Shown piece by piece: positions 12,386-32,506 of a DNA stretch of 64,000 bases. The position numbers and the translations under genes were made by a program. Source of the stretch: Deinococcales bacterium (GTDB lineage Bacteria; Deinococcota; Deinococci; Deinococcales; JAAFIG01); assembly GCA_013298595.1 (NCBI GenBank), contig JAAFIG010000007.1:65574-129573 (forward strand), given 5' to 3'. The notes under the pieces are model-generated. The model searched no databases and was not told the origin of the DNA. It saw only the letters and a list, made by a program, of their open reading frames with translations. The first letter of the stretch is position 1. Each line of letters starts with the position of its first letter.

Positions 12386-13078
12386 TCAATGACGAACAAA
12401 CTCATCATTGTTGATGGATTCTGAAACAAAGAAAACTATTGAATCAACAATATGCAAAACCTCATCTTCTAGAATTTGGTAGTCCGCTTTTCCAATTCCA
12501 TCTTTACGAGAACCATGTGCAACATCATTTCTAAATTTTAGTAATTTTTCTATCTTCCCAGACCAATCATCTACTTTTTCATACTTAAAACCTAATAGGT
12601 ATAAAACTTTTTTTAACACAAAAGGTTTGATGTTAGATTCTAAATCAACAATTTCTTTCTCATCTAAACTAACCTTATTAGATAAAATTAACGAAAAATT
12701 TTCTACAAATTCTTTTTGGCGAGCAAATCTATGTAATTTTTCATCATTGGGGAGTACAGATTTAAAATATTTATTCTTTGTATCAGAATTTAGAGCTTTA
12801 AAGACTGGCGCGAAAGAGCTGGCTAAGAGTGACCAAGCTACCTGAGAATTTTGCAGTTCTAGTTTATTGAGGTGGTGTATATAAGAAGTGAAAATAAATT
12901 TACACATTCCTTCAAAATAGGCATATAACATGACTATGAGAGCCTTGCGTAATATTTTTTGTTCCCCAAAATCTTCAATATTAGCTATATTATTCTTTAA
13001 AAGTCTAATTTCTGATTCTCGCCATAACCGCTCTTGCTCCACTTCTTCTCGAAACGACAAAACATCTATGAGAGGCAT
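12386..13078 (-). CDS. HEPN-domain protein (MAE_28990/MAE_18760-like), putative RNase
   Basis: A 230-residue mostly helical protein. Near residues 183-188 it carries RNDVAH, fitting the R-x4-6-H catalytic signature of HEPN ribonucleases, just after LLKF as in MAE_28990-type HEPN proteins. The N-terminal half has the aromatic helix LRKALIVMLYAYFEGMCKFIF, also typical of that group. ATG 13078 is preferred over TTG 13090. The gene overlaps the end of the DUF262 gene, so it is the third gene of a coupled operon with a methyltransferase. HEPN toxins in defence loci usually cleave RNA once activated; that role here is inferred. Confidence 0.75.
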   Translation of the reverse strand: MPLIDVLSFREEVEQERLWRESEIRLLKNNIANIEDFGEQKILRKALIVMLYAYFEGMCKFIFTSYIHHLNKLELQNSQVAWSLLASSFAPVFKALNSDTKNKYFKSVLPNDEKLHRFARQKEFVENFSLILSNKVSLDEKEIVDLESNIKPFVLKKVLYLLGFKYEKVDDWSGKIEKLLKFRNDVAHGSRKDGIGKADYQILEDEVLHIVDSIVFFVSESINNDEFVRH

Positions 13079-14217
13079 TTTGAAAACCAATCATCTACGA
13101 ATTTTATTCTTCTCTCAAGAGCCGCCGAATAATTCTTACCGCCGCCTTTAGTAAGTGTTTGAAAATTAGTATCCTTTTTTAGAGAAATAAAGAAGTCCTT
13201 AATTTTTTCTGAATCCGACTGGATTAGACTTTTTATTTTTTCTAGGTGAGTTTGAATGCCAATAGTTATCGAATCAAAACTCAAAGAAGAGAAATTACCC
13301 TGCGAATTACCTCGTTGATTAAACCCAGAAAATGGCAAGTCGCCTAGAATTTCGTATAAAACCTTAAAGGTTGTGATAAATATATTTTTTTCGCTTTCGT
13401 AATCAAAACTAATGTGGTTTTTTGATTGACTGTCAGAAATTGCCTCCATGTATTCTGTGAGGAAATCCCCGACGTTCTTAACATATTTCGTTCTGTAATT
13501 TTTTACAGAAAAAAACCTCAAAGCATATTCTTCTAAGTACATTTGTTTTTGTTTTTCTTCAGTTAGACCACTCATACATAATTTATAGTTAGTGTCTTTC
13601 ACGATACTTTTTAAGAATTCATTGAAAGTATTATCAAGAAGTCTAATTGTACAATTTCTAATTTCCTGCTCACTGAGTTTCTCGCCTCCAGTATTTAGGC
13701 GTTTAAACATATGATATTTTAATCGAACATCACTTTCCCGCCTTAAAACTTCCATTCTAATAAAATGTCGCTTTAATTTTATTTGAATTGCCGAAGGCAA
13801 ATCCTTATAAGTTAAACCATTTAAACTTTCTATTATATCACACCCAGTAAGCATTAAATATTCATTTTCTAAATATCCTGAAAAATCACCATTTTCTTCA
13901 TTTATTGATGCTTTAATTCCTCTAAAGTGAAAATAGGAAGATATTCTTTGCAGCCCGTCAATAAGCTCATAGACTCCATTATCAACTTCCATCACATAGA
14001 TTGGAGGAATGGGTAGCTCAAGTATTAGAGATTCTATGAATTGGGACTGCTTAGCTTCACTCCATCTAAAAAGCCTTTGAAAATCAGGTGAAATTTTAAG
14101 TTCTTCTGACTTAAACATATCAAAAAGCTCATTAAAAGAAACGTCTAAAGTCCTCGTTCTAGCTTTTATTGTAGTTGAATCAACATTTTCAATCAATTCT
14201 ATGAATTTCTCACTCAT
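13066..14217 (-). CDS. DUF262 (GmrS-like, ParB/Srx-fold) protein
   Basis: A 383-residue DUF262 protein. Diagnostic segments are PDFQRLFRW (about residues 44-52), IDGLQR (86-91), the ParB-like DGxQR motif that in GmrSD and related systems binds or hydrolyses nucleotide, and FKRLNTGG (171-178). The DUF1524 HNH nuclease domain found in GmrSD fusions is not visible, so cleavage, if any, would depend on a partner such as the HEPN protein. Its ATG shares one base with the methyltransferase stop (TAATG) and its end overlaps the HEPN gene: the middle gene of a tightly coupled operon. Confidence 0.88.
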   Translation of the reverse strand: MSEKFIELIENVDSTTIKARTRTLDVSFNELFDMFKSEELKISPDFQRLFRWSEAKQSQFIESLILELPIPPIYVMEVDNGVYELIDGLQRISSYFHFRGIKASINEENGDFSGYLENEYLMLTGCDIIESLNGLTYKDLPSAIQIKLKRHFIRMEVLRRESDVRLKYHMFKRLNTGGEKLSEQEIRNCTIRLLDNTFNEFLKSIVKDTNYKLCMSGLTEEKQKQMYLEEYALRFFSVKNYRTKYVKNVGDFLTEYMEAISDSQSKNHISFDYESEKNIFITTFKVLYEILGDLPFSGFNQRGNSQGNFSSLSFDSITIGIQTHLEKIKSLIQSDSEKIKDFFISLKKDTNFQTLTKGGGKNYSAALERRIKFVDDWFSKCLS

Positions 14218-15506
14218 TAAATCCTCCTTATATGCAAAACTGACTCTTTTTGCATACTTTCAAGCGATCTATAAGGCAAAGACTTTACGTTAATTTGCGA
14301 TAAAGAATGGCTTATTAAATTTTCAGAAATAATTTCGACAGAATAACCAATATTTTCAAACATTTCTTTATATAAAGAGGGAAGATCAACATAAATTTCC
14401 TTATAAAACGATCCTTGTACTACAAAAAAAATATTGCAATCATCTTTACAAACTCGATCTATTTCATTGATAGACTCATGACAATCAGAAAAATAATTCC
14501 AATACGTTTTATAATAATACGAACTTGATGCCTTACTAGGATGATTTTTGATTTGATTTAAGATTTTTTTGACTGAATTTACCCAAATTTCTTTAGGCTC
14601 ATATATTTTAAGTGGTCTTACTAAAGGCGCTCCCATTATTTCTCGCCTAAATTCTTTAAAGTCTTTATGCTTTATATCTATCGATAAAGCACATAACTCA
14701 AATGAAGTACTAATCGCATAATCAATTCTAGTGCAATATGGAGGTGAGGTTAAAACAAAATCAATCGAATTATCCTCAAGTGGGATTTTTCTTGAGTCAC
14801 CAATTAAAATTTGTGAATCTAAAGCTTTATTTAAGGTAGATACTGGTATATCTTGAGCCATAGAAATTACAAATGATAGCCATAAATCTGCAAGATCACC
14901 TATATTGTTTTTGAATTTTGTTTTTTTCACCCATGTTGGGTTAGAGCCTGATGGTATAGCAGCTAGTTCTTTAGCAGCACGTATCAAAGCAAATACTAAA
15001 AATGATGCAAGATTAGATATTTTCCCTGAGCTAGGAGTAAAAGTTATTTTTTCTCCTGTTGTTGCGAGATGTTTTAAAATTTCGCCTTCAAGAAATCGAT
15101 ACTGAGCTACCATTTTTTTATTCAACCAATTATCTAATGGATCATATTGTTTTTTAATTTTTAGTTTTTTCTCTTTTAGCCTTCCACAAATTTCATATAC
15201 CAAACCTGCTATTTGGTTAGCATCATCAAATCTGACGAGCTTTGCTTTAGCAATTAAGATTGCGACAGGATTTAAGTCAACTCCAATAGACAAATAACCT
15301 AGTTCATTTGCTATGTGTGTTGTGGTACCACTCCCGTTCCAAGGATCAAGAATAATCGAGTCAGGGTTTAGGTCTGCATAGCGTATAACATCTTTTGCAA
15401 ATCGCGCAGAGTAACCTGCGTAATATTGACACCAATTTTCAATCTTTTCCTGACTCGAAAAGTTGCGCTTAGCATCATAATTCAGAACATTTTTACCATT
15501 ATTCAT
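14217..15506 (-). CDS. DNA methyltransferase (amino-group, TSPPY type)
   Basis: A class I AdoMet-dependent DNA methyltransferase of about 429 residues. The cofactor loop DPWNGSGTT (about residues 54-62) precedes GVDLNP, and the catalytic motif IV is TSPPYCTRIDY (about 254-264). SPPY favours N4-cytosine, though N6-adenine cannot be excluded. The long segment between the motifs (about 80-250) probably holds the target-recognition region. ATG 15506 is chosen over GTG 15515 because GGAG lies eight bases upstream. It is the first gene of the operon. The target sequence is unknown, and the gene contains no CTCGAG. Confidence 0.88.
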   Translation of the reverse strand: MNNGKNVLNYDAKRNFSSQEKIENWCQYYAGYSARFAKDVIRYADLNPDSIILDPWNGSGTTTHIANELGYLSIGVDLNPVAILIAKAKLVRFDDANQIAGLVYEICGRLKEKKLKIKKQYDPLDNWLNKKMVAQYRFLEGEILKHLATTGEKITFTPSSGKISNLASFLVFALIRAAKELAAIPSGSNPTWVKKTKFKNNIGDLADLWLSFVISMAQDIPVSTLNKALDSQILIGDSRKIPLEDNSIDFVLTSPPYCTRIDYAISTSFELCALSIDIKHKDFKEFRREIMGAPLVRPLKIYEPKEIWVNSVKKILNQIKNHPSKASSSYYYKTYWNYFSDCHESINEIDRVCKDDCNIFFVVQGSFYKEIYVDLPSLYKEMFENIGYSVEIISENLISHSLSQINVKSLPYRSLESMQKESVLHIRRI

Positions 15507-15584
15507 TACTAACACTCCAAAAAAATGCTTGTATAATTTAAATGACGCTATACGTATTTCAAATACTTAAAGACTCGAGCCTTA

Positions 15585-15637
15585 GCGTTTAGCACAAGGC
15601 TGCACGCAAAATTCTACCACGCTTTCTCGAGTGCTTA
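15585..15637. repeat. Spacer repeat, copy 1 (downstream of xisI)
   Basis: A stretch of about 53 bp, sharing the run GGCTGCACGCAAAAT and a TTTCTCGAG end with 16,380-16,438. The two copies lie on either side of the xisH–xisI pair in the same orientation, with scattered differences. Confidence 0.7.
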
Positions 15638-15958
15638 CCTTACAAACTCGAGCTTCTGCTTCTGGCTCGGCATCATGTACGCCAACACGATTTTATTTTC
15701 TGGAATTCCAAGACGCATCAGTTCGTTTGCCACACCAATATCTGTTCCATCTTCTTGCACCCAAATCAGGTTATCTCGAATGTCCATTTGTGCCACAATG
15801 CCATGCACACGCTTATGCTGCTGCCAACCACTGACCAGAAGTTGATACTGATGCTTTTCTTTATCCGCCAGCAGCGAATACTCGAGTCCATTGCTGCTGC
15901 GTGGTGTGATGCTGTTCAGCACCTCGAGAATGGCTTGTTCTGCTTGTTTTATGTCCAT
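15635..15958 (-). CDS. xisI: XisI family protein (fdxN element excision controlling factor)
   Basis: A 107-residue XisI homologue. The hallmark segments are present: an N-terminal helix (IKQAEQAILEVLNSI), YQLLVSGWQQHKRVHGIVAQMDIRDNLIWVQEDGTDIGVANELMRLGIPENKIVLAYMMPS. In heterocystous cyanobacteria XisH and XisI are needed for excision of the fdxN element. Outside that setting they form a widespread pair of unknown function, and no excisable element is evident here. It overlaps xisH by 10 bp and contains several CTCGAG sites, so it is an older resident than the neighbouring island. Confidence 0.9.
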   Translation of the reverse strand: MDIKQAEQAILEVLNSITPRSSNGLEYSLLADKEKHQYQLLVSGWQQHKRVHGIVAQMDIRDNLIWVQEDGTDIGVANELMRLGIPENKIVLAYMMPSQKQKLEFVR

Positions 15959-16362
15959 GCCTCAATCACCTCTTCTTCTGTATTGTAGACCAATGATCGA
16001 ACATTGTGGCGTTTCAATGCAGCTTGTACAAGGTCACGCTCGAGAATTCTGGCATAAGTGGTATTTGGTAATGCAAGGTATAAAACGCGAGTTGGTTCGT
16101 TGGTCTCGAGTGCCATTTGATAATTTAAGTATTGCCCGAGTGCAGCATGAAAATCGTGGAGAATACTTGGGTTGTTAAAACTCTTTATCTCAACCGCAAT
16201 TTTTTGATTGTTCCGTTCTGCCGCAATGGTGTGTTCTGCCGCTAAGTCTATAGCTATCACATCTCGCCCAAAGCCAAGATAGTATGGGTCTGCGGTAATT
16301 TTCCAGCCTTCTTTCTCGAGGGCTGTTCGGACAGTATCATGGTAGTTATCACGGGCAGGCAT
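15949..16362 (-). CDS. xisH: XisH family protein (restriction-endonuclease-like fold)
   Basis: A 137-residue XisH homologue. It begins ARDNYHDTVRTALEKEGWKITADPY and contains DLAAEHTIAAERNNQKIAVEIKSF, whose D…E-x-K pattern is the PD-(D/E)xK nuclease core reported for this family. It is co-transcribed with xisI, which it precedes. The pair may act as a nuclease module or in genome rearrangement; nothing in the sequence decides which. Confidence 0.9.
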   Translation of the reverse strand: MPARDNYHDTVRTALEKEGWKITADPYYLGFGRDVIAIDLAAEHTIAAERNNQKIAVEIKSFNNPSILHDFHAALGQYLNYQMALETNEPTRVLYLALPNTTYARILERDLVQAALKRHNVRSLVYNTEEEVIEAWT

Positions 16363-16379: not shown

Positions 16380-16438
16380 GTTTAGCATAGGGCTGCACGC
16401 AAAATCTTACCATGCTTTAAGCTTTCTCGAGCGCCTTA
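16380..16438. repeat. Spacer repeat, copy 2 (upstream of xisH)
   Basis: Partner of 15,585-15,637, slightly longer because of a small insertion before TTTCTCGAG. The copies bracket xisHI. Confidence 0.7.
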
Positions 16439-16942
16439 GTTAAAAGCTGTCGAAATCGCTTTTGGAAATTCCGTGACCAATTCGGATTGCTCGAGTAAAC
16501 CATCTGCATTAAAAAACTGCATATTGCCATTCTGGTCGCATTCCCAAACTTCTTTCGCACCTGCTGCAAAGTACAAGCCGCGTTTCTCGAGGAATTCTTC
16601 TTTGGTGTTGCTGTTACTCCAAACTTCCACGCAGATGCTTGGGGCGAGTGTGAATACATCGTCTTGTTCTTCATGAAAATGCGTTTCGAGCGCCCATGCA
16701 ACATCTGCCACGCGTACACCTTTACTGGTGAGAATACTGACTTCTTGGAGTGCATAACCACCTGTTAATAGTTGCTCGAGGTGCTTTGCGATGAGGTATT
16801 GCAAAAAGGTGTGGCGTTTGGTGACTGGACTGAGCAGTAATTGTCCTCTTTCGTTCAGTTCGATTTTATAAGGTAAGTCGTGTAGCGAAGGATTCTCGAG
16901 TACCTCTTGCCATTGCTTTTTGATTGAATTGGCTTGGGTCAT
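16436..16942 (-). CDS. Uma2 family protein (DUF820, PD-(D/E)xK-like)
   Basis: A 168-residue DUF820/Uma2 protein. Family elements are the early WQEVLENPSLHDLPYKIELNERGQLLLSP, the KGVRVADVAWA strand with its catalytic-type Asp, and PSICVEVWSNSNTKEEFLEKRGLYFAAGAKEVWECD with the E-x-x…K-x-x-Y-x-x-x-G-x-x-E-V-W pattern. ATG 16942 has AGGAG five bases upstream, so a longer frame from 16963 is unlikely. These proteins have a nuclease-like fold, and their role is unknown; they multiply in cyanobacteria and similar bacteria. A paralogue sits at 38,369. Confidence 0.88.
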   Translation of the reverse strand: MTQANSIKKQWQEVLENPSLHDLPYKIELNERGQLLLSPVTKRHTFLQYLIAKHLEQLLTGGYALQEVSILTSKGVRVADVAWALETHFHEEQDDVFTLAPSICVEVWSNSNTKEEFLEKRGLYFAAGAKEVWECDQNGNMQFFNADGLLEQSELVTEFPKAISTAFN

Positions 16943-17042
16943 AAAACTCCTAATTGGCTGCATTGTAGCAAATGCTTTTACCTCGAGTTTCCCACGCTTG
17001 GTGCAGGTTTTTACTTTGACTCGAGCGCGTATTGTTCAATGC

Positions 17043-24337: not shown

Positions 24338-25522
24338 TTACGCCCTTGTAGTAACAATATCCACACTGGCAGCCCACTGACTAATATCACGGCGTTGAAT
24401 AGCCGCTGCCATCATGTCTGGAAACAAATCTGGTGTACAAGCAAACACAGGCACACCCATTTTGGCGAGTGCTGCACCATTTTGCACATCGTAACTGGGT
24501 CTGCCATCATCAGACAGCGCCAGCAAAGAAATGACCGTCACACCCGCAGCCACAAATGCCTCGAGTTTAGACAACATGGCAGCACTACCGCCACCTTCGT
24601 AAAGGTCAGAAATCAAAATAAAAATCGTATCCTCGGGTTTCTCGAGCAACCCCGCACAGTAATCCAGTGCTCGAGGGGTATCGTTACCACCACCGAGTTG
24701 CGTACCAAATAAGACATCCACAGGGTCGTGTAACTCGGCAGTTAAATCCACCACACTGGTGTCGTACACCACCACCCGTGTTCGCACTGCTGGTAGGCTT
24801 GCCAGCACCGCACCAAACACACCTGCGTACACCACACTTGATCCCATCGAACCACTTTGATCCAAGCACAAAATAATGTCACGCAGACTCGAGCGTTTGC
24901 GACCAAAACCAATTTTGGTTTCAGGCACAATACTCTGATAATCGGGTTGGTAATGCTTTAAGTTTGCCCGAATAGTCCGATTCCAATCCATTTCGGTGTG
25001 CTTAGGACGACGATTACGAATGGCACGATTCAGACTACCAACCACAGCTTCTCTGGTTTTCTCGGCTAATTTACGCTCGAGTTCCTCGACCACTTTACGC
25101 ACAATTAACCGCGCTGTTTCTTTGGCTTTGGCAGGCATGACATTCTTTAAGGAAAGTAATGTACTGACCATATGCACATCTGGCGTGACTGCCTCCATCA
25201 TCTCAGGCTCGAGCAGCATTCGTTTTAAGCCAAGCCGATCAAAGGCATCACGCTGCATCACTCGCACCACACTCGAGGGAAAAAACTCGCGGATATCACC
25301 AAGCCAACGTGCCACTTTCGGTTGCGATTTACCTTTTCCAACATTGTTACGGTTGCGTTCTTTATCCTCGGGCGACATGGGTTTACTCTCCCCATCGCCA
25401 TACAAAGACTCGAGCGCCATATCTAAACGCTGATCGGATGCACCACACGAACCACATGAATCATCGGCGGCACTGCCTAGCAGCAAACGCCAACGCCGAA
25501 AACGCTCTACCTCGAGACTCAT
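24338..25522 (-). CDS. VWA domain protein (CoxE/YehP-like) of the MoxR cluster
   Basis: A 394-residue cytoplasmic protein. The von Willebrand A domain (about residues 210-390) has an intact MIDAS site: LDQSGSM, a downstream Thr in GGGNDTPRAL, and an Asp in ILISDLYE. The N-terminal part is helical and charged, with a CGSCGASDQ segment near residue 23 that may bind metal. MoxR-type AAA ATPases typically act with a VWA partner to remodel or load metal onto targets, and the MoxR gene lies upstream in the same operon. It overlaps ung by 4 bp. It resembles E. coli YehP. Confidence 0.88.
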   Translation of the reverse strand: MSLEVERFRRWRLLLGSAADDSCGSCGASDQRLDMALESLYGDGESKPMSPEDKERNRNNVGKGKSQPKVARWLGDIREFFPSSVVRVMQRDAFDRLGLKRMLLEPEMMEAVTPDVHMVSTLLSLKNVMPAKAKETARLIVRKVVEELERKLAEKTREAVVGSLNRAIRNRRPKHTEMDWNRTIRANLKHYQPDYQSIVPETKIGFGRKRSSLRDIILCLDQSGSMGSSVVYAGVFGAVLASLPAVRTRVVVYDTSVVDLTAELHDPVDVLFGTQLGGGNDTPRALDYCAGLLEKPEDTIFILISDLYEGGGSAAMLSKLEAFVAAGVTVISLLALSDDGRPSYDVQNGAALAKMGVPVFACTPDLFPDMMAAAIQRRDISQWAASVDIVTTRA

Positions 25523-26184
25523 TCAAGACTCCAATCAATTGGGCTTTGCAATGCCGCATTGATCTTAGAAAAAGGCTTTGAACCAAAAAAACCATTACTA
25601 GCCGATAGCGGCGAAGGATGAGCGCTTTGAATCACTGTGTGCTTGGTCGTATCAATCAGCTCGAGTTTCTTTTGGGCATGAGCGCCCCACAAAACAAACA
25701 CCACAGGTTCGCCCTTGGCACTGACTGCCCTGATAATTGCATCGGTAAAATCCTCCCAACCACGTTTCTTATGCGAAGCTGGTTCGTGCGCTCGAACAGT
25801 TAAAACAGTATTCAACAGCAACACACCCTGCCGCGCCCAAGACTCGAGAAACCCATGCTTAGCACGTGGCACACCCAAATCCGACTCGAGTTCCTTGTAC
25901 ATATTAACCAAACTCGGCGGAACTTTGATGCCACGTTGCACACTAAACGCAAGCCCATGCGCCTGACCATCATCATGGTACGGGTCTTGCCCAACCACCA
26001 GCACCCGCACAGCATGAAACGGTGTGAACTCGAGTGCCGAAAACACTTCAGATTCAGGTGGGAAAACCTGATGCGCTTTACGTTCCGCTTCGAGAAAAGC
26101 CTCGAGTTTAGGCATGTATGGTTTAGAAAATTCAGACTCGAGCACGGTTTGCCAAGAAGCTGGGATTTGGGATTTCAGGGACAT
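25519..26184 (-). CDS. ung: Uracil-DNA glycosylase (family 1)
   Basis: A 221-residue Ung that removes uracil from DNA. Motifs are the water-activating loop GQDPYHDDGQAHGLAFSV (about residues 64-81, catalytic Asp), the Asn-containing LLLNTVLTVRAHEPASH, and HPSPLSASNGFFGSKPFSKIN with the Leu-intercalation His loop. The gene is complete. It lies in the middle of the MoxR/VWA operon: its stop overlaps the VWA start (ATGA), and upstream it is separated from DUF4240 by REP palindromes. Confidence 0.96.
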   Translation of the reverse strand: MSLKSQIPASWQTVLESEFSKPYMPKLEAFLEAERKAHQVFPPESEVFSALEFTPFHAVRVLVVGQDPYHDDGQAHGLAFSVQRGIKVPPSLVNMYKELESDLGVPRAKHGFLESWARQGVLLLNTVLTVRAHEPASHKKRGWEDFTDAIIRAVSAKGEPVVFVLWGAHAQKKLELIDTTKHTVIQSAHPSPLSASNGFFGSKPFSKINAALQSPIDWSLE

Positions 26185-26203
26185 GGGTTTCTCCTTTTTC
26201 TTT

Positions 26204-26265
26204 AGGTGAGGCGTGCCTCACCGTTATGGTTGGACAAAGCAAGGCGAGGCATGCCTCGCCCCTAG
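26204..26265. repeat. Two REP-like palindromes between DUF4240 and ung
   Basis: Palindromes at 26,204-26,229 (GGTGAGGC…GCCTCACC) and 26,242-26,265 (GGCGAGGC…GCCTCGCCCC). The first shows compensatory T/A changes that keep the stem. Confidence 0.85.
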
Positions 26266-26269
26266 AGGT

Positions 26270-26800
26270 TTAGTCTTCGTTTTGACTCATCAGGGCGAAC
26301 AGGTTTGGGAAATGCTCTTGGTAAAAATCATCATCATCTTCATTCCACATCTCACCAAATTGATGATTCGCATCTCGAGGTGGGAACGGTGGATACTGAT
26401 CGGTGCGGGCTTGGTAGACATCAGAAGCCACGGATAACATATCTTCAAACTCGAGTTCTTCGTAGGGTTCCCAGTCAGGAATTTGCGGCAAATAATCCGC
26501 TAAAGAATCAGGGTTCTCGAGGGCTGCAAAAAACACGGTTTTACCTTGGGCAACAAGCCAACCACGAAAATAATCAAAACCATCATCGGAGCAACCACCA
26601 TTTATCAGGTACGCAGCTGCCCACAGTTTTGAGAGATACGAACGGTTAAGAAAAGTCCAAATCCAACCATGTAATGCCACCAATTCATCGTTTGATAAGG
26701 TTTCGGCTTGCACAGAAAATTGTTCTCGTAAAGCCTCGAGATCATGACCAGCCACAGCTCTTGCATTCGCAATAAAATCCCAGAATTGATCTTCGGTCAT
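26270..26800 (-). CDS. DUF4240 domain protein
   Basis: A 176-residue protein beginning MTEDQFWDFIANARA, the start typical of DUF4240. Characteristic WTFLNRSYLSKLWAAAYLINGGCSDDGFDYFRGWLVAQGKTVFFAALENPDSLADYL and a late acidic tail (WNEDDDDFYQEHFPNL) follow. The family is uncharacterised; some members resemble WGR-/ADP-ribose-associated regulators, which I do not claim here. It lies within the MoxR operon but is flanked on both sides by REP palindromes, suggesting it arrived as a separate cassette. Confidence 0.88.
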   Translation of the reverse strand: MTEDQFWDFIANARAVAGHDLEALREQFSVQAETLSNDELVALHGWIWTFLNRSYLSKLWAAAYLINGGCSDDGFDYFRGWLVAQGKTVFFAALENPDSLADYLPQIPDWEPYEELEFEDMLSVASDVYQARTDQYPPFPPRDANHQFGEMWNEDDDDFYQEHFPNLFALMSQNED

Positions 26801-26832
26801 GATGATGCTCCTTTATGGTTAGTTAGAACGGC

Positions 26833-26859
26833 AAGGCGAGGCATACCTCGCCCCTACGG
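26833..26859. repeat. REP-like palindrome between DUF5682 and DUF4240
   Basis: One palindrome (GGCGAGGC…CCTCGCCCCTACGG) fills the gap directly after the DUF5682 stop codon. Confidence 0.8.
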
Positions 26860-26860
26860 T

Positions 26861-29119
26861 TTAGGACGGAATTCCTAGCATTTGCGAAATTAATGGCACA
26901 ACTTGTTCGGCTCGAGCATTATCCACGTTTTGATTGGCTCGAGTAACACTGATTGGCTTTGGGGTTTTAACTTTTTGTCCGATGTCACGGCGTTCGGCAG
27001 GTTCAAAACTCGAGAATGTACGCCGCAACAATGGCAGCACAGCAATAAAAGCTTCGGGTGTCAGGTACTGCACCCAAGAATCAAGCACACCAAACAAGGC
27101 ATCATCGTGCACCAAAACCAAACCACTGCCACGCAAAAAACCATCCAACCAAGCAGCCACTTCGTTAGGGTCAGAGGCAATACTTGCCACATACGACAAA
27201 CGATTGGCAGTGTCCTCGGCAGTAAACACACCTTGCTCGAGCAGCAATCTTGAAGCACGACCCGCAATCAAACCATGCAACCCAAGTTGTTTAGCCAGCA
27301 CTTGCAACACATCACGCCAAGCCTCGAGTAAACTGGGTTGCTCGAGGGTTTGAATAGCGCTGTGTAACTCGAGAAAATGCGGATAAAGATCAAGTGCAGC
27401 CTCATCGGATAAACTGGCGGTGGCATTAGGTAAACCAATACAGACACGCAACACCAAACCAGACACCACATGTTCCAACATTTTCGTATCGAGTTGCCGC
27501 ACACTGCCGTACCGCTGCACTCGAGCCAATGGCGGAATCGCTTGCATCAAATGATTGATATCAGCATCCTGAGCTGCCGCCGCCTCGAGCCGAGCCATAA
27601 CCAGTTGCGCCGCATTGGGCAAATTCGACAGCAAGACATCATCCAGTAAACCCGTTAAGGTTGGTAAATGACTGGTTAAACTCGAAATTTCCAGAACCTT
27701 CTGTGTTGCTGCTTCAAGCACACTCGAGCCAAACATCGCCGCTTCGATCAAACGCACTGCAAACTCAGGATGCCACTGCACCCGCCATGCCTCTTTGAAC
27801 GTACCCTTGCCACTCGAGCCAACACTTTCGCCCCACGGTACACCCAGCAACCGCAACCGATGCAACAACACACTGCGCTCGAGATCATTGGGTTGACGCA
27901 AATCGAATTCCACATTTTTAGCAGTTGCATCAGGCTTAAACCGCAAACGTTTTTGCTCCGCCTCGAGATCACGCACCAACGGCACCGTCGGTGTTTCCGC
28001 GGGCACGGCACCAAGGGTTTCTGCCAGAATCAACTTATCGCTAATCAGTGCAAGTGGCAAATCAGAATCCCAAGCAAACAATGCCCGCGAAACCTCATTC
28101 ATTTCGTCTAACCCCGGCATCGGCGAACCACGCAAGGCTGCCAGCGTCTCGGCTAAACGCACCGCTTCGATAATACTGGCACTCGAAGCAGGTAAATCCT
28201 CAGCTCGCAACAAATGCGCCACCTTGGTCAACCAATGCGACACCACATTGCGCGAAGACGAATCCTGCAAATCCCACAAATGCGCGTACCAACCTGGGCT
28301 GGTCACACCCGCACCATAGCCACTCGAGCGAGCTAAACGACCAAACGTCCACGGAATCCACGTACTCGAAACAGCGACCTTTGGTAAATTCTCCAGCAAC
28401 TTCGCATCGGCTTTGGCATCCGCCACCTCGAGATTCAACGCAGGTGAATGCCACGCACCACAAACCACTGCGATACGCTGAAAACCATCCTTTTGCGCCT
28501 GACGAATGGTTTGTCGCATAAAGGCTTCACGCAACGCCTCACGCGGCTCGAGCATCTTCGACTCAAGCCTCAGCGCCGTCATTGCCTCGAGAATCGCTGC
28601 GAAGACATCCTCATCCGAACGGCGCTGCTCGACCAAATACTCCCAGTAACGCTCACCATCAGAAAAACCAGCAGCTCGAGCCAACCAACCCAACGGGTCA
28701 GCTGCAACATCATCAGATTCAGCATTAGCATCGCTCGAGGCATCAGATTCGGTTTCGGCATTGGGCGAGGCATGCCTCGCCCCTACGAGTTCGGTAGGAT
28801 CAGCAAGCAATTGATGGGCTTGCGGTAAATCCATAAAACGCACCGAAGCATTATTCTCGAGCGCAAAACGAATTGCTTGAAACTCAGGCGAAAACGCAGC
28901 AAACGGATAATACACAGCCTTCGACGGATCATCCTTAGCATGCAACAACAACGCAATAGGCGGTTTCATATCCACATGCCCAAGCAACGGCAACAAATCA
29001 TTAGCATCAGGCGGACCCTCCACCAACACACAATCAGGCTCGAGCACCCGCAACGCCCGCAACAACGAACGCGCCCCACCAGGACCATGATGACGCACAC
29101 CAAACAAATGCACACTCAT
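26861..29119 (-). CDS. DUF5682 family protein (YehM-like)
   Basis: A 752-residue DUF5682 protein. The N-terminal signature MSVHLFGVRHHGPGGARSLLRAL, then VLVEGPPDANDLLPLL and later IAVVCGAWHSPAL, resembles the active-site-like His and Glu layout of TraB/EreA-type folds; whether it is an enzyme is not known. The C-terminal half is Leu/Ala-rich helical repeats. It is encoded next to MoxR and VWA genes throughout bacteria. A REP palindrome at 28,763-28,787 is translated in frame (VGARHASPN near residue 114). Its ATG overlaps the transposase stop. Confidence 0.9.
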   Translation of the reverse strand: MSVHLFGVRHHGPGGARSLLRALRVLEPDCVLVEGPPDANDLLPLLGHVDMKPPIALLLHAKDDPSKAVYYPFAAFSPEFQAIRFALENNASVRFMDLPQAHQLLADPTELVGARHASPNAETESDASSDANAESDDVAADPLGWLARAAGFSDGERYWEYLVEQRRSDEDVFAAILEAMTALRLESKMLEPREALREAFMRQTIRQAQKDGFQRIAVVCGAWHSPALNLEVADAKADAKLLENLPKVAVSSTWIPWTFGRLARSSGYGAGVTSPGWYAHLWDLQDSSSRNVVSHWLTKVAHLLRAEDLPASSASIIEAVRLAETLAALRGSPMPGLDEMNEVSRALFAWDSDLPLALISDKLILAETLGAVPAETPTVPLVRDLEAEQKRLRFKPDATAKNVEFDLRQPNDLERSVLLHRLRLLGVPWGESVGSSGKGTFKEAWRVQWHPEFAVRLIEAAMFGSSVLEAATQKVLEISSLTSHLPTLTGLLDDVLLSNLPNAAQLVMARLEAAAAQDADINHLMQAIPPLARVQRYGSVRQLDTKMLEHVVSGLVLRVCIGLPNATASLSDEAALDLYPHFLELHSAIQTLEQPSLLEAWRDVLQVLAKQLGLHGLIAGRASRLLLEQGVFTAEDTANRLSYVASIASDPNEVAAWLDGFLRGSGLVLVHDDALFGVLDSWVQYLTPEAFIAVLPLLRRTFSSFEPAERRDIGQKVKTPKPISVTRANQNVDNARAEQVVPLISQMLGIPS
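28763..28787. repeat. REP-like palindrome inside the DUF5682 coding sequence
   Basis: GGGCGAGGC…GCCTCGCCCCTAC lies within the gene without breaking the frame. It encodes VGARHASPN in a Ser/Asp/Ala-rich linker. Confidence 0.85.
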
Positions 29120-29745
29120 ACCAACACCTCGAGCCTTGCAAAAACCAAATCATGCAACACCAAATCAGATTTCGCCTCGAGATCAAACAACCAACTCGAG
29201 GGATTGACTTTGATGTAATCACGAACAGCCTGTAATTCGTGGTTGTTACGTAAAACACGTTCAAAATAATTGCGCTGCCAAACAACCAAATTTGGATTAT
29301 CAAAACGAACCCGAGCAACTCGAGAAACTGCTGACTTAAAACCACCAATAATTGCCCCCAATGAATTGGCTGATGCGTTCATTGGGGGGTCGGCGGTCTT
29401 GGTTTGTGATAAAAACAATTCTTTTCGTGCAGCGGCTAACTGTATTGATGCGTTTGCCATTGGCAAATTGGGCGAGGCAAGCCCCGCCCCTACGGCTGGT
29501 TGAATGCAAACAATCGCATGAATGTGATTTGGCATGACAATAAATTCGTCTAAAACAATATTTTCACGCAACTGCCCCATCCGATGCCATTCCTCGAGAA
29601 TAATTTTCCCTAATTCATTTAATTGCATTTTTTGATCATCAATTGAACCAAAAATCTGTTCTCGCTGATAACTACAAATCGTAATGAAATACGCACCGCT
29701 CGAGGTGTAATCAAAATTGCGTAATCGAATGCTGTTGCGTTCCAT
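29116..29745 (-). CDS. REP-associated tyrosine transposase (RAYT, TnpA_REP/IS200-like)
   Basis: A Y1 HUH-type transposase of about 209 residues from ATG 29745 (MERNSIRLRNFDYTSSGAYFITIC). The HUH motif is PNHIHAIV, and the catalytic Tyr lies in RDYIKVNPSSW near the C-terminus; VWQRNYFERVLRN is typical of the RAYT group. An in-frame extension to TTG 29880 (254 residues) overlaps the MoxR stop by 4 bp, but it translates a 30-bp tandem repeat and a REP. The stop overlaps the DUF5682 ATG, so the gene is embedded in the operon. A second REP (29,470-29,496) is translated inside it. Confidence 0.9.
   Translation of the reverse strand: MERNSIRLRNFDYTSSGAYFITICSYQREQIFGSIDDQKMQLNELGKIILEEWHRMGQLRENIVLDEFIVMPNHIHAIVCIQPAVGAGLASPNLPMANASIQLAAARKELFLSQTKTADPPMNASANSLGAIIGGFKSAVSRVARVRFDNPNLVVWQRNYFERVLRNNHELQAVRDYIKVNPSSWLFDLEAKSDLVLHDLVFARLEVLV
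29470..29496. repeat. REP-like palindrome inside the RAYT coding sequence
   Basis: GGGCGAGGCAAGCCCCGCCCCTACGG is translated as part of PAVGAGLASPN, between the HUH motif and the C-terminal domain. The frame is kept. Confidence 0.85.
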
Positions 29746-29771
29746 AAAACCCCAAAATCCCTGTCCTAAAC

Positions 29772-29796
29772 CGTAGGGGCGGGGCTTGCCTCGCCC
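29772..29796. repeat. REP-like palindrome in the RAYT leader
   Basis: CCGTAGGGGCGGGGCTTGCC… lies just upstream of the likely RAYT start. In the extended frame it encodes GRGKPRPYG. Confidence 0.8.
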
Positions 29797-29855
29797 TTGC
29801 CCGTAACGATGCTGATCCATCCTGACTTGCCCGTAACGATGCTGATCCATCCTGA
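29796..29855. repeat. Two perfect 30-bp tandem repeats in the RAYT leader
   Basis: The unit beginning CTTGCCCGTAACGATGCTGA occurs at 29,796-29,825 and again at 29,826-29,855, identical. Its length is a multiple of three. On the minus strand it encodes a repeated RMDQHRYGQ block, so the frame from the MoxR stop to the RAYT stays open. Confidence 0.95.
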
Positions 29856-29876
29856 CCCATAAACAAAACAAATCCT

Positions 29877-30956
29877 TCAAACCACGTCACGACAAGCCCG
29901 ATAAACGTCTTTCCATCCGTCGCGTTCTTTGACCACTGTCTCGAGGTACTCAAGCATGACTACTCTGTCTTGGATTGGGTCTTTGATGATTGCACCTATG
30001 AGGCTTGAGGCGACATCGTTAGCGCGGAGGATGCCATCGCCAAAGTGGGCTGCGAGGGCAAGTCCTTGGTTGATAACGCCGATGGCTTCAGCGGTGCTAA
30101 GTGTGCCGCTTGGGCTTTTCAGTTTGGTTTTTCCGTCGAGTGTTTTGCCGTCGCGGAGTTCGCGGAAGACTTGGACAACCCGACGGATTTCTTCGAGTGC
30201 GGGTGGTTCGGCGGGTAGCTCGAGAGCGCGTCCAAGATCGGCTACGCGAGTTTGCACAATACGAATTTCTTCGTTGAGGTCGTCTGGTACGGGTAAAATA
30301 ACAGTGTTGAAGCGGCGTTTGAGGGCGCTCGAGAGTTCGTTGACTCCTCGGTCTTTGTTGTTGGCGGTGGCGATCATGTTGAAGCCTTTTTGGGCTTGGA
30401 CTTCGCTATTAAGTTCGGGGATGGGCAGTGTTTTTTCGGATAGCACGGTAATCAGTGCGTCTTGAACATCGGATGGGATGCGGGTGAGTTCCTCGAGTCG
30501 AGCAATAGCGCCTGTTTTCATGGCGCGAATGATTGGGCTTTCGACGATGGCTTTGACGCTGGGTCCTTTGGAGAGCAGTTCGGCGTAATTCCAACCGTAA
30601 CGAATGGCTTCTTCGGATGTGCCAGCGGTGCCTTGAACCAGTAAGGTGCTATCGCCACTGATGGCGGCGGCTAAGTGTTCGGATACCCAACTTTTGGCTG
30701 TGCCCGGCACGCCAAGTAATAACAGTGCGCGGTCGGTGGCAAGGGTTGCCACGGCGATTTCCATCAGGCGTTGGTTGCCGATGTATTTGGGTTTGATCTC
30801 GAGTTTGCTAACCTTGCCACCCATCAGGTATTGAATCACTGCCCACGGGCTGAGTTTCCAGTTGGGTGGTCTGGGTTTGTCGTCGAGTTTGGCGAGTGCC
30901 TCGAGTTCTTCTGCGAATTGTTGTTCGGCGTGTTGACGGAGGGCATTTTCGCTCAT
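29877..30956 (-). CDS. MoxR-family AAA ATPase (YehL-like)
   Basis: A 359-residue AAA+ ATPase from ATG 30956, which overlaps the DUF5691 stop by 4 bp. Walker A is LGVPGTAKSW, Walker B/sensor region ARLEELTRIPSDVQDALITVLSE, and sensor 1/arginine-finger segment IATANNKDRGVNELSSALKRRFN. The C-terminal lid follows. MoxR proteins act with VWA partners as remodelling chaperones; the VWA, SWIM, DUF5682 and DUF5691 partners are all in this operon. A longer frame from 31043 would overlap the upstream gene by 90 bp and lacks conservation. Confidence 0.93.
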   Translation of the reverse strand: MSENALRQHAEQQFAEELEALAKLDDKPRPPNWKLSPWAVIQYLMGGKVSKLEIKPKYIGNQRLMEIAVATLATDRALLLLGVPGTAKSWVSEHLAAAISGDSTLLVQGTAGTSEEAIRYGWNYAELLSKGPSVKAIVESPIIRAMKTGAIARLEELTRIPSDVQDALITVLSEKTLPIPELNSEVQAQKGFNMIATANNKDRGVNELSSALKRRFNTVILPVPDDLNEEIRIVQTRVADLGRALELPAEPPALEEIRRVVQVFRELRDGKTLDGKTKLKSPSGTLSTAEAIGVINQGLALAAHFGDGILRANDVASSLIGAIIKDPIQDRVVMLEYLETVVKERDGWKDVYRACRDVV

Positions 30957-32506
30957 GGTTGTAGTTCCTTTCGCATTGCGTTGCGGGTCTCGAGGTGAGA
31001 GATGAGGGTTTTGATTTGCTCGAGGTGGTGTTGGATGTACCATGCTCGATTATTTTTTTCGGGGTTAAATTGGTTTGTTTGCTCGAGGAAACTTGTCCAG
31101 TTTGGGTGTTTTGTTGGGTTGTGCCAGTGCTGAATAATGTCTGGGTGGCAGTATTGGGCGATGTTTTGGATGTTGTGGTAATTGCTGGTACCTTTGAGGA
31201 TTTGTTTGCTGATATTGCCTAGCCACTCGAGGCAGTCGCGGCTGAATTCGATGTTCCATGCGTGGTTCATCCAAGCGAGCCATTGAAAATCGTGGGTTTG
31301 TTTAGCGAAGATAAAGTACCGAACGCGTTTTTCGCGTTGCTCGAGGCTTAGGGTTTTCATCAGGGTTTCGTTTTTGATTAGGTCGTTGTCGTAACTGAGT
31401 AAGGCATCTATCCATTCTGGGTTGGGGTGAATTTCGTTGGCTTGAACAAAGGCAATCAATAAGTTTTTGCGCCAATCTTTGGGTAGGCGTTTGATGATTT
31501 CTTTTGGCTCGAGATGAAAGTGTGGTTGCCATGTGCTGATGGGGATATTAGCGATGATGCTTTGCAACCAGTAGGCTTTGTCGCCGCCTGTGCCGTATGG
31601 TGTTTTTTTCTCAATACCATCGCGTCCAAGTTCGGTGTTCCATTCGGGTAATTCGATTTCAAATTCTGGTGCGCCAAGTTTCAATGCCGATTTTTTCAGT
31701 GGGATGCTCAGGATGTTTTGTCCTCGAGCAATCATGCGTTGCACCAAGGCGCTGTTGGGTAGTTTAGCCAGTAACATGGCGGCGATACTGCGGACATCTT
31801 TGCTGCGATCATCTAAGCAAGTCTCGAGGAAAGGTTCGTCGGCATCGGTTAATTTGCTTTCGAGTTCGCTTAAAAAAGTTTTGCGTTCCTCGGCAACTTC
31901 GGCTTTCCAAACACTTTGTAATAAGTCTCGGGCGGTGTCTGGTTGTTCGGTTCGGATGCTGCGAAAAGCCAGGACCCGAGCGGCTTTGGTACCTGTTTCC
32001 CATGTCTCGAGGGCATTTTCTAAGCTGCTGGTGTTACCTGTTGCCCATGACCAGTACGGGTTTTGTTGGGCTAACCAACGTCCTCTCGAGTCAAGGATTG
32101 GCATGATGGTTTCGCGGCTGGCAGTATTTTGTCTGCCGTAATCGAGCAAAGCAATAATATGGCTGTGCGGAATAGCATAATTGCTTTGCTTGACCAACTC
32201 GAGCCATTCGGGAATTAGTTCTGTTGCCGAGGCAAATAACAAATCGAGTCGTTGCATGGCTGCTTCAGAAATACGCACTCGAGTATCAGGTTCGGCTGGT
32301 GTCAGCGGTTTGCTATTGGCATTGGTTTGTTCGCCTGCTCGAGTCATGGCAAAAGCCAGTGCGGCAACGCCAAGCAGTTGTCCTGTATGGCGTTGGTCTT
32401 CTAAGTTCACTCGAGCTTTTTCAAGGGCGGGGTGCTCCAGCGTACCAAGGGGGCTGCGTTCAGTGCCGAGTAAAGCACTCGAGATGATGGCGCGAAGGTC
32501 GTTCAT
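30953..32506 (-). CDS. DUF5691 family protein
   Basis: A 517-residue protein that begins MNDLRAIISSALLGTERSPL, as DUF5691 members do. It is mainly helical, with HEAT-like segments (RDLLQSVWKAEVAEERKTFLSELESKLTDADEPFLETCLDDRSKDVRSIAAMLLAKLPNSALVQRMI) suggesting a scaffold. It is coupled to SWIM upstream and MoxR downstream by 4-bp overlaps. The molecular role is unknown; the family is essentially always found beside MoxR and SWIM genes. Confidence 0.88.
   Translation of the reverse strand: MNDLRAIISSALLGTERSPLGTLEHPALEKARVNLEDQRHTGQLLGVAALAFAMTRAGEQTNANSKPLTPAEPDTRVRISEAAMQRLDLLFASATELIPEWLELVKQSNYAIPHSHIIALLDYGRQNTASRETIMPILDSRGRWLAQQNPYWSWATGNTSSLENALETWETGTKAARVLAFRSIRTEQPDTARDLLQSVWKAEVAEERKTFLSELESKLTDADEPFLETCLDDRSKDVRSIAAMLLAKLPNSALVQRMIARGQNILSIPLKKSALKLGAPEFEIELPEWNTELGRDGIEKKTPYGTGGDKAYWLQSIIANIPISTWQPHFHLEPKEIIKRLPKDWRKNLLIAFVQANEIHPNPEWIDALLSYDNDLIKNETLMKTLSLEQREKRVRYFIFAKQTHDFQWLAWMNHAWNIEFSRDCLEWLGNISKQILKGTSNYHNIQNIAQYCHPDIIQHWHNPTKHPNWTSFLEQTNQFNPEKNNRAWYIQHHLEQIKTLISHLETRNAMRKELQP

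Follow-up and report, generated by a model that had tools for sequence, protein, structure and literature searches.

The DUF262 sensor fold is common to GmrSD, BrxU, SspE, Menshen and PD-T4-2, and the question that it raises is how one fold links the sensing of DNA to different effectors. In BrxU, NTP hydrolysis resides in the DUF262 part of the protein and DNA cleavage in its HNH part, where D474 and H475 are the nuclease residues (PMC8565348). PD-T4-2, which came out of a functional selection in E. coli and protects its native strain against T4 (Vassallo et al. 2022; PMC9519451), consists of a DUF262 protein and a HEPN protein of family PF18735 (PMC10952713). An arrangement with a third gene was recorded by Anantharaman et al. 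(2013), whose Table 1 gives the MAE_28990 HEPN family as ‘in operon with a ParB nuclease and DNA methylase genes’ (PMC3710099). Those authors class DUF262 as ParB, and they propose that HEPN RNases encoded in restriction-modification (R-M) operons serve as a second line, like PrrC (PMC3710099).

We analysed a 64,000-nucleotide stretch of DNA from a Deinococcales bacterium (hereafter ‘the window’), in which a MAE_28990 HEPN gene, a ParB-fold gene and a DNA methylase gene occur together in one operon, the combination named in that 2013 table. A first-pass annotation, made from the letters alone, had put these three genes forward as an undescribed defence system. That description does not hold, since the operon type appears in Table 1 of the 2013 work (PMC3710099) and a DUF262 protein with a HEPN partner is the architecture of PD-T4-2. 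In a library of open-access papers, where only two name DUF262 together with HEPN and only one names MAE_28990, we found neither a name nor a mechanism for the trio.

The three genes and their products

The trio lies on the minus strand and is transcribed in the order methyltransferase (MTase), DUF262 protein, HEPN protein. The genes and their principal motifs are:

14217–15515, minus strand: DNA amino-methyltransferase (N4-cytosine or N6-adenine); Pfam N6_N4_Mtase 4.8e-14, PADLOC MTase_II 2.9e-26
15321–15347, minus strand: SAM-binding motif DPWNGSGTT of the MTase, residues 57–65, read from the sequence
14736–14750, minus strand: catalytic motif TSPPY of the MTase, residues 256–260 (GTG numbering), read from the sequence
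13066–14217, minus strand: DUF262/GmrSD_N ParB-Srx-fold protein, 383 aa; Pfam GmrSD_N 7.5e-28
13945–13959, minus strand: nucleotide-pocket motif DGLQR (D87–R91) of the DUF262 protein, the counterpart of DGQQR in BrxU, GmrSD and SspE
12386–13090, minus strand: MAE_28990/RiboL-PSP-type HEPN protein; Pfam HEPN_RiboL-PSP 2e-31 and HEPN_MAE_28990 2e-26, above gathering scores
12515–12532, minus strand: catalytic motif RNDVAH of the HEPN protein (R187, N188 and H192 counted from the TTG; R183/H188 from the ATG)

The MTase stop overlaps the DUF262 start by 1 bp (TAATG), and the DUF262 and HEPN genes overlap by 13 bp if the HEPN gene begins at its ATG (13078; 230 aa) or by 25 bp if it begins at the TTG (13090; 234 aa). 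The MTase is 432 aa long from a GTG at 15515 and 429 aa from an ATG at 15506, the latter matching the span of 12386–15506 that was first assigned to the cluster. All three proteins score above curated Pfam cut-offs (93.8 bits for the HEPN protein against the MAE_28990 family PF18737, where the cut-off is 26.8), and the catalytic motifs of the trio are intact, with TSPPY, DPWNGSGTT, DGLQR and RNDVAH nearly invariant among relatives. Positions that do not vary at all include D57, P58, W59, G61, G63, T65 and S257-P258-P259-Y260 of the MTase (28 trio relatives), D87, G88, Q90 and R91 of the DUF262 protein (66 relatives), and R187, N188, H192 and G193 of the HEPN protein (64 relatives), in which an R-x4-H active site is present. 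The initial call of three overlapping minus-strand genes is thus confirmed by open reading frames, Pfam matches and motifs.

The HEPN protein is a probable endoRNase effector. The solved folds nearest to its AlphaFold2 model (pLDDT 95.3) are those of HEPN proteins (2hsb, Z 8.0; a HEPN-MNT toxin, Z 7.7; Csm6, Z 6.8).

The DUF262 protein is, by analogy with its characterized kin, a probable NTP-dependent sensor or regulator. No HNH domain had been visible in it at first reading, and the closer analysis agrees: Pfam detects neither a DUF1524 nor an HNH domain in the protein, the DHxxP signature is missing from all 126 related DUF262 proteins, and in an AlphaFold2 model built from 63 relatives (mean pLDDT 91.8; two rows from plasmid records were left out of the structure-prediction input) an alpha/beta N-terminal domain is joined to a C-terminal half that is all but wholly helical. 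The solved structure that best matches this model in VIA-align is BrxU (Z 8.1); SspE (Z 6.9) and folds of the ParB/Srx type come next. The alignment covers BrxU residues 1–419 and ends 55 residues before the BrxU nuclease motif, and the protein would therefore correspond to BrxU without its nuclease, a kinship that the structure supports and does not prove. We reject a hidden HNH domain on three grounds: the missing signature, the helical C-terminus and the end of the alignment at residue 419. The rmsd of the BrxU match is 13.4 over 287 residues, which probably reflects shifted domains, and the family relation is independently established by the Pfam match.

These structural matches come from VIA-align, with modest Z values of a kind that common arrangements can produce, though the families in the top rows are the expected ones. 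Foldseek matched neither the DUF262 nor the HEPN model at an E of 0.001 or below, and sequence searches of solved structures returned nothing for either protein. A type II R-M system would need a cognate endonuclease that cuts the unmethylated MTase target; no known DNase domain was found.

The trio core has a GC content of 31–33% vs 44–52% in most flanking bins, and this AT-richness suggests that the region was gained horizontally. The trio is absent from 110 other genomes of the phylum, and one genome of the same family has a two-gene DUF262-HEPN locus. Promoter and terminator scans of the region gave no excess over shuffles.

The genes flanking the trio are XisI/XisH and a response regulator. 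The XisI and XisH genes lie directly upstream (15635–16362, minus strand; Pfam 1e-27 and 4e-52) and are followed by a Uma2-family gene (16436–16963); an XisI-like ORF, recognized by sequence likeness, also comes after the DUF262-HEPN pair of a related genome (L002:3584-3919). Further along the window (24338–31043, minus strand), VWA_CoxE, DUF4240, DUF5682 and AAA_5/MoxR-like genes, between which an IS200-like transposase-domain protein is encoded, look like a MoxR-vWA-type gene cluster, possibly another conflict system.

Related loci and the cohesion of the operon

A single-sequence query of genome contigs gave no match, and an alignment query retrieved DUF262 relatives. These came from genome contigs (80) and viral contigs (50), and their neighbours were scored with purpose-built profiles. 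Counted among the 137 loci surveyed are the window, a single locus from a related genome and several plasmid records; the selection favours relatives of the window, and the counts below are not population frequencies. A HEPN gene lies directly downstream of the DUF262 gene in 128 of the 137. An MTase gene of the same family stands directly upstream in 34 (the window included) and is absent from that position in 92, the remaining 11 being unjudgeable at a contig end. The order MTase-DUF262-HEPN is kept in all 34 trios, whose spacings, with few exceptions, lie between −28 and +25 bp. The named phyla that hold them number at least nine (Pseudomonadota, Bacillota, Myxococcota, Planctomycetota, Bacteroidota, Acidobacteriota, Actinomycetota, Cloacimonadota and Nitrospirota), and phage contigs carry trios as well. 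Conserved co-occurrence, which had been suggested as a check on the cluster, is therefore borne out.

In a tree of the DUF262 proteins, one group of 51 rows (support 97) holds 31 of the 33 distinct trios together with a pair-only clade, mostly from Clostridia. Across 29 trios the Mantel r between pairwise protein distances was 0.57 for MTase and DUF262, 0.63 for MTase and HEPN, and 0.75 for DUF262 and HEPN (0 of 5000 permutations in each case), values that shared species history can raise. Because the distances are correlated and horizontal transfer has apparently carried the loci across phyla, joint transfer of the three genes is the simplest reading of the sequences. An MTase that is merely nearby by chance was rejected, given the recurring order and the correlated protein distances. 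No other neighbour family occurs in more than two of about 23 loci; the unit is therefore one of three genes, and an obligate fourth gene was likewise rejected.

The converse search, begun from the MTase family, covered 738 genomes of two orders that, except for two centre genomes, had not been selected for DUF262. It gave seven matches, six of which adjoin a DUF262 gene (L165, L166, L167, L168, L169 and L171, where L165 and L168 correspond to survey loci L014 and L021); the rate is low, at about 0.8% of the genomes covered. The gene order at L169 is DUF262-HEPN-MTase, and at L171 the MTase lies beside a DUF262 protein carrying an HNH domain. At L170 (359-2787) the neighbour is a SIR2-like gene (SIR2_2, 6.5e-8); L170 and L171 are two MTase copies of one genome. 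The arrangement at L171 suggests that the HEPN protein occupies a place that an HNH nuclease can take, and judging from these neighbourhoods the effectors that partner trio-family MTases may be interchangeable.

On phage contigs, two orphan MTases of this family have no DUF262 neighbour, one beside a terminase gene (L143:4959-6299) and one near a baseplate gene (L148:4105-5391). Phages are known to escape restriction by carrying a copy of a system's methylase. The two orphans fit a protective mark, with the qualifications that there are only two and that orphan phage methylases are common, and counter-defence by self-methylation is possible. A further phage contig (L151:2046-5064) carries a trio-family MTase with a divergent DUF262 protein (GmrSD_N 7e-18), and there the HEPN position holds a 216-aa protein without a Pfam match.

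Methylation and the candidate mechanism

The operon, which is widespread, is probably an anti-phage defence; its kinship with PD-T4-2 and the occurrence of such loci on phage contigs and on plasmids bear on this indirectly. We see roughly even chances that it is, specifically, a mobile anti-phage operon in which the MTase marks self DNA, the DUF262 protein is an NTP-dependent sensor and the HEPN protein is an RNase effector, a division of labour that is reasonable by analogy. In such an operon the MTase would modify host DNA at its target, and recognition of self would be lowered or prevented. The DUF262 protein, like BrxU, SspE and GmrS, would bind NTP and sense foreign or unmodified DNA, and it would switch a separate HEPN RNase instead of an attached HNH nuclease. 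The HEPN protein would then cut RNA, and translation and phage growth would most likely cease, through growth arrest or abortive infection. The DUF262-HEPN pair would form an autonomous core, as in PD-T4-2, and the MTase a conserved module on which one large lineage would depend and without which others would manage.

The main weakness of the model as first proposed, with methylation as the self-mark, is the existence of pairs that lack the MTase. The DUF262-HEPN pair alone is the commoner form in the survey (92 loci, to 34 for the trio), and in 85 of the 92 pair loci no ORF within 400 bp is MTase-like. The pair-only clade near the trios comprises 16 rows, mostly Clostridia, and a genome-wide search for each of these 16 loci found no close copy of the MTase (E below 1e-40; best 3e-30). 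We therefore reject an MTase acting in trans in these Clostridia genomes, where only such distant MTases are present. With a clade of this kind inside the trio group, the effector pair cannot in general require methylation. The abundance of MTase-less pairs, this close clade included, argues against a sensor that simply reads the absence of the MTase's methylation, and the statement that unmethylated DNA triggers the HEPN protein is not established. Either the pair senses something besides the MTase's methylation, or target recognition changed upon loss of the MTase.

At five viral loci (L120, L131, L132, L133 and L134) a DUF262-HEPN pair has a different amino-MTase gene, convergent and within about 50 bp, which is an independent association with methylation. 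In a Lachnospiraceae locus (L041:3212-9822) a pair is apparently inserted between mutS-like and mutL-like genes, identified by eye.

A more specific proposal is a restriction-like immune type in which DNA methylation licenses an RNase and not a DNase: the DUF262 protein would read the methylation state of a specific site, an unmethylated site would render the HEPN protein active, and the related MTase-less pairs would be derived forms responding to another signal. We regard this as possible and advance it tentatively. If it is true, restriction extends beyond DNA cutting.

The 2013 work points to a different role for the RNase, having proposed for HEPN genes in R-M operons generally a multi-pronged, PrrC-like scheme (Anantharaman et al. 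2013; PMC3710099). Applied here, the MTase and the DUF262 ‘ParB nuclease’ would make up an R-M unit that cuts unmodified DNA, and the HEPN protein would be held inactive by this unit and freed as a last resort when a phage disables restriction. Nuclease activity in ParB/Srx proteins is possible according to the literature, and the MTase with DUF262-HNH at L171 resembles ordinary R-M. However, DNA cleavage by BrxU sits in the HNH part (PMC8565348), which is missing from the DUF262 protein of the window, and a DNA-cutting DUF262 protein should be lethal at the many MTase-less loci unless the host lacks its target; we consider the scheme unlikely.

It appears quite improbable that the locus is a toxin-antitoxin or abortive-infection pair with a regulatory methylase, in which the DUF262 protein would restrain the HEPN protein, the MTase would methylate the operon promoter or a guarded site, and loss of methylation or nucleotide changes during infection would free the toxin. 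The HEPN fold is indeed closest to HEPN toxins and Csm6, many loci do without the MTase, and pairs are found on plasmids and phage contigs. Against this, promoters in the region are no more frequent than in shuffles, the DUF262 gene precedes the HEPN gene and its product is kin to nucleic-acid sensors and not to known antitoxins, and the long co-inheritance of the MTase exceeds what a regulatory role needs. A passenger reading, in which the MTase would be an orphan methylase gene that became fixed beside a PD-T4-2-like pair and has no mechanistic part, draws on the occurrence of its family without DUF262 (the phage orphans L143 and L148, and L170 with its SIR2-like neighbour), but is made very improbable by the near-constant overlap or close spacing, the correlated distances and the DUF262 gene beside six of seven independent MTase matches.

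Together these loci form a natural matched set: the DUF262-HEPN core with the MTase (the trio) and without it (the Clostridia clade), and the same MTase family with DUF262-HNH (L171) or a SIR2-like gene (L170). Their side-by-side comparison bears on methylation as a self-signal and on the interchangeability of effectors.

Comparison with known systems

PrrC-EcoprrI, in which an R-M system guards a HEPN anticodon nuclease, resembles the trio in tying a HEPN RNase to DNA modification genes; PrrC, however, comes with an ABC-type NTPase of its own and a type I R-M partner, and the partners are not homologous. GmrSD, BrxU and SspE share with the window the DUF262 ParB/Srx fold and the nucleotide motif (DGQQR in those proteins, DGLQR here), but each has its own C-terminal DUF1524 HNH nuclease where the window has a separate HEPN gene. 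The DUF1524 HNH motif of GmrSD-type IV restriction (DHIYP) is not found in the DUF262 protein of the window.

Among PADLOC models, the DUF262 protein matches both NsnA (PDLC03877; 8.8e-61) and the PD-T4-2_A component (PDLC04027; 8.4e-42), the NsnA model scoring higher. We infer that Nsn in PADLOC (NsnABC) is Menshen; in the literature we found only unrelated uses of the letters ‘NsnA’ and ‘NsnB’. Menshen has a DUF262 protein of the same type, without HNH, but pairs it with an OLD-type nuclease/ATPase, and none adjoins the DUF262 gene of the window: neither the NsnB nuclease/ATPase nor NsnC is next to it, its neighbours being the HEPN and MTase genes. The NsnB model matches in all control genomes, the behaviour expected of an ATPase family.

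PD-T4-2 has an HNH-less DUF262 protein of similar length with a HEPN gene directly after it, and the window DUF262 protein is 28% identical over residues 26–371 to a PADLOC-matched PD-T4-2 relative whose locus has the same layout. In contrast to the trio, PD-T4-2 has no MTase, and its HEPN protein is shorter (about 168 aa) and of a weakly related family. The PD-T4-2_B model matches neither the window HEPN protein at E 0.1 nor its relatives, a HEPN protein of another subfamily occupying the place.

The MAE_28990 operon of 2013 comprises the same three families, and its HEPN protein is predicted there to be active; the entry in that table is a single line, with no named system, mechanism or test beside it (PMC3710099). 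The operon type had thus already been recorded by comparative genomics, the pair of genes at its core resembles the validated PD-T4-2, and the window holds a new copy. What is new here is the breadth and cohesion of the operon, the absence of the HNH domain at the structural level, and the natural variants that make the role of methylation testable.
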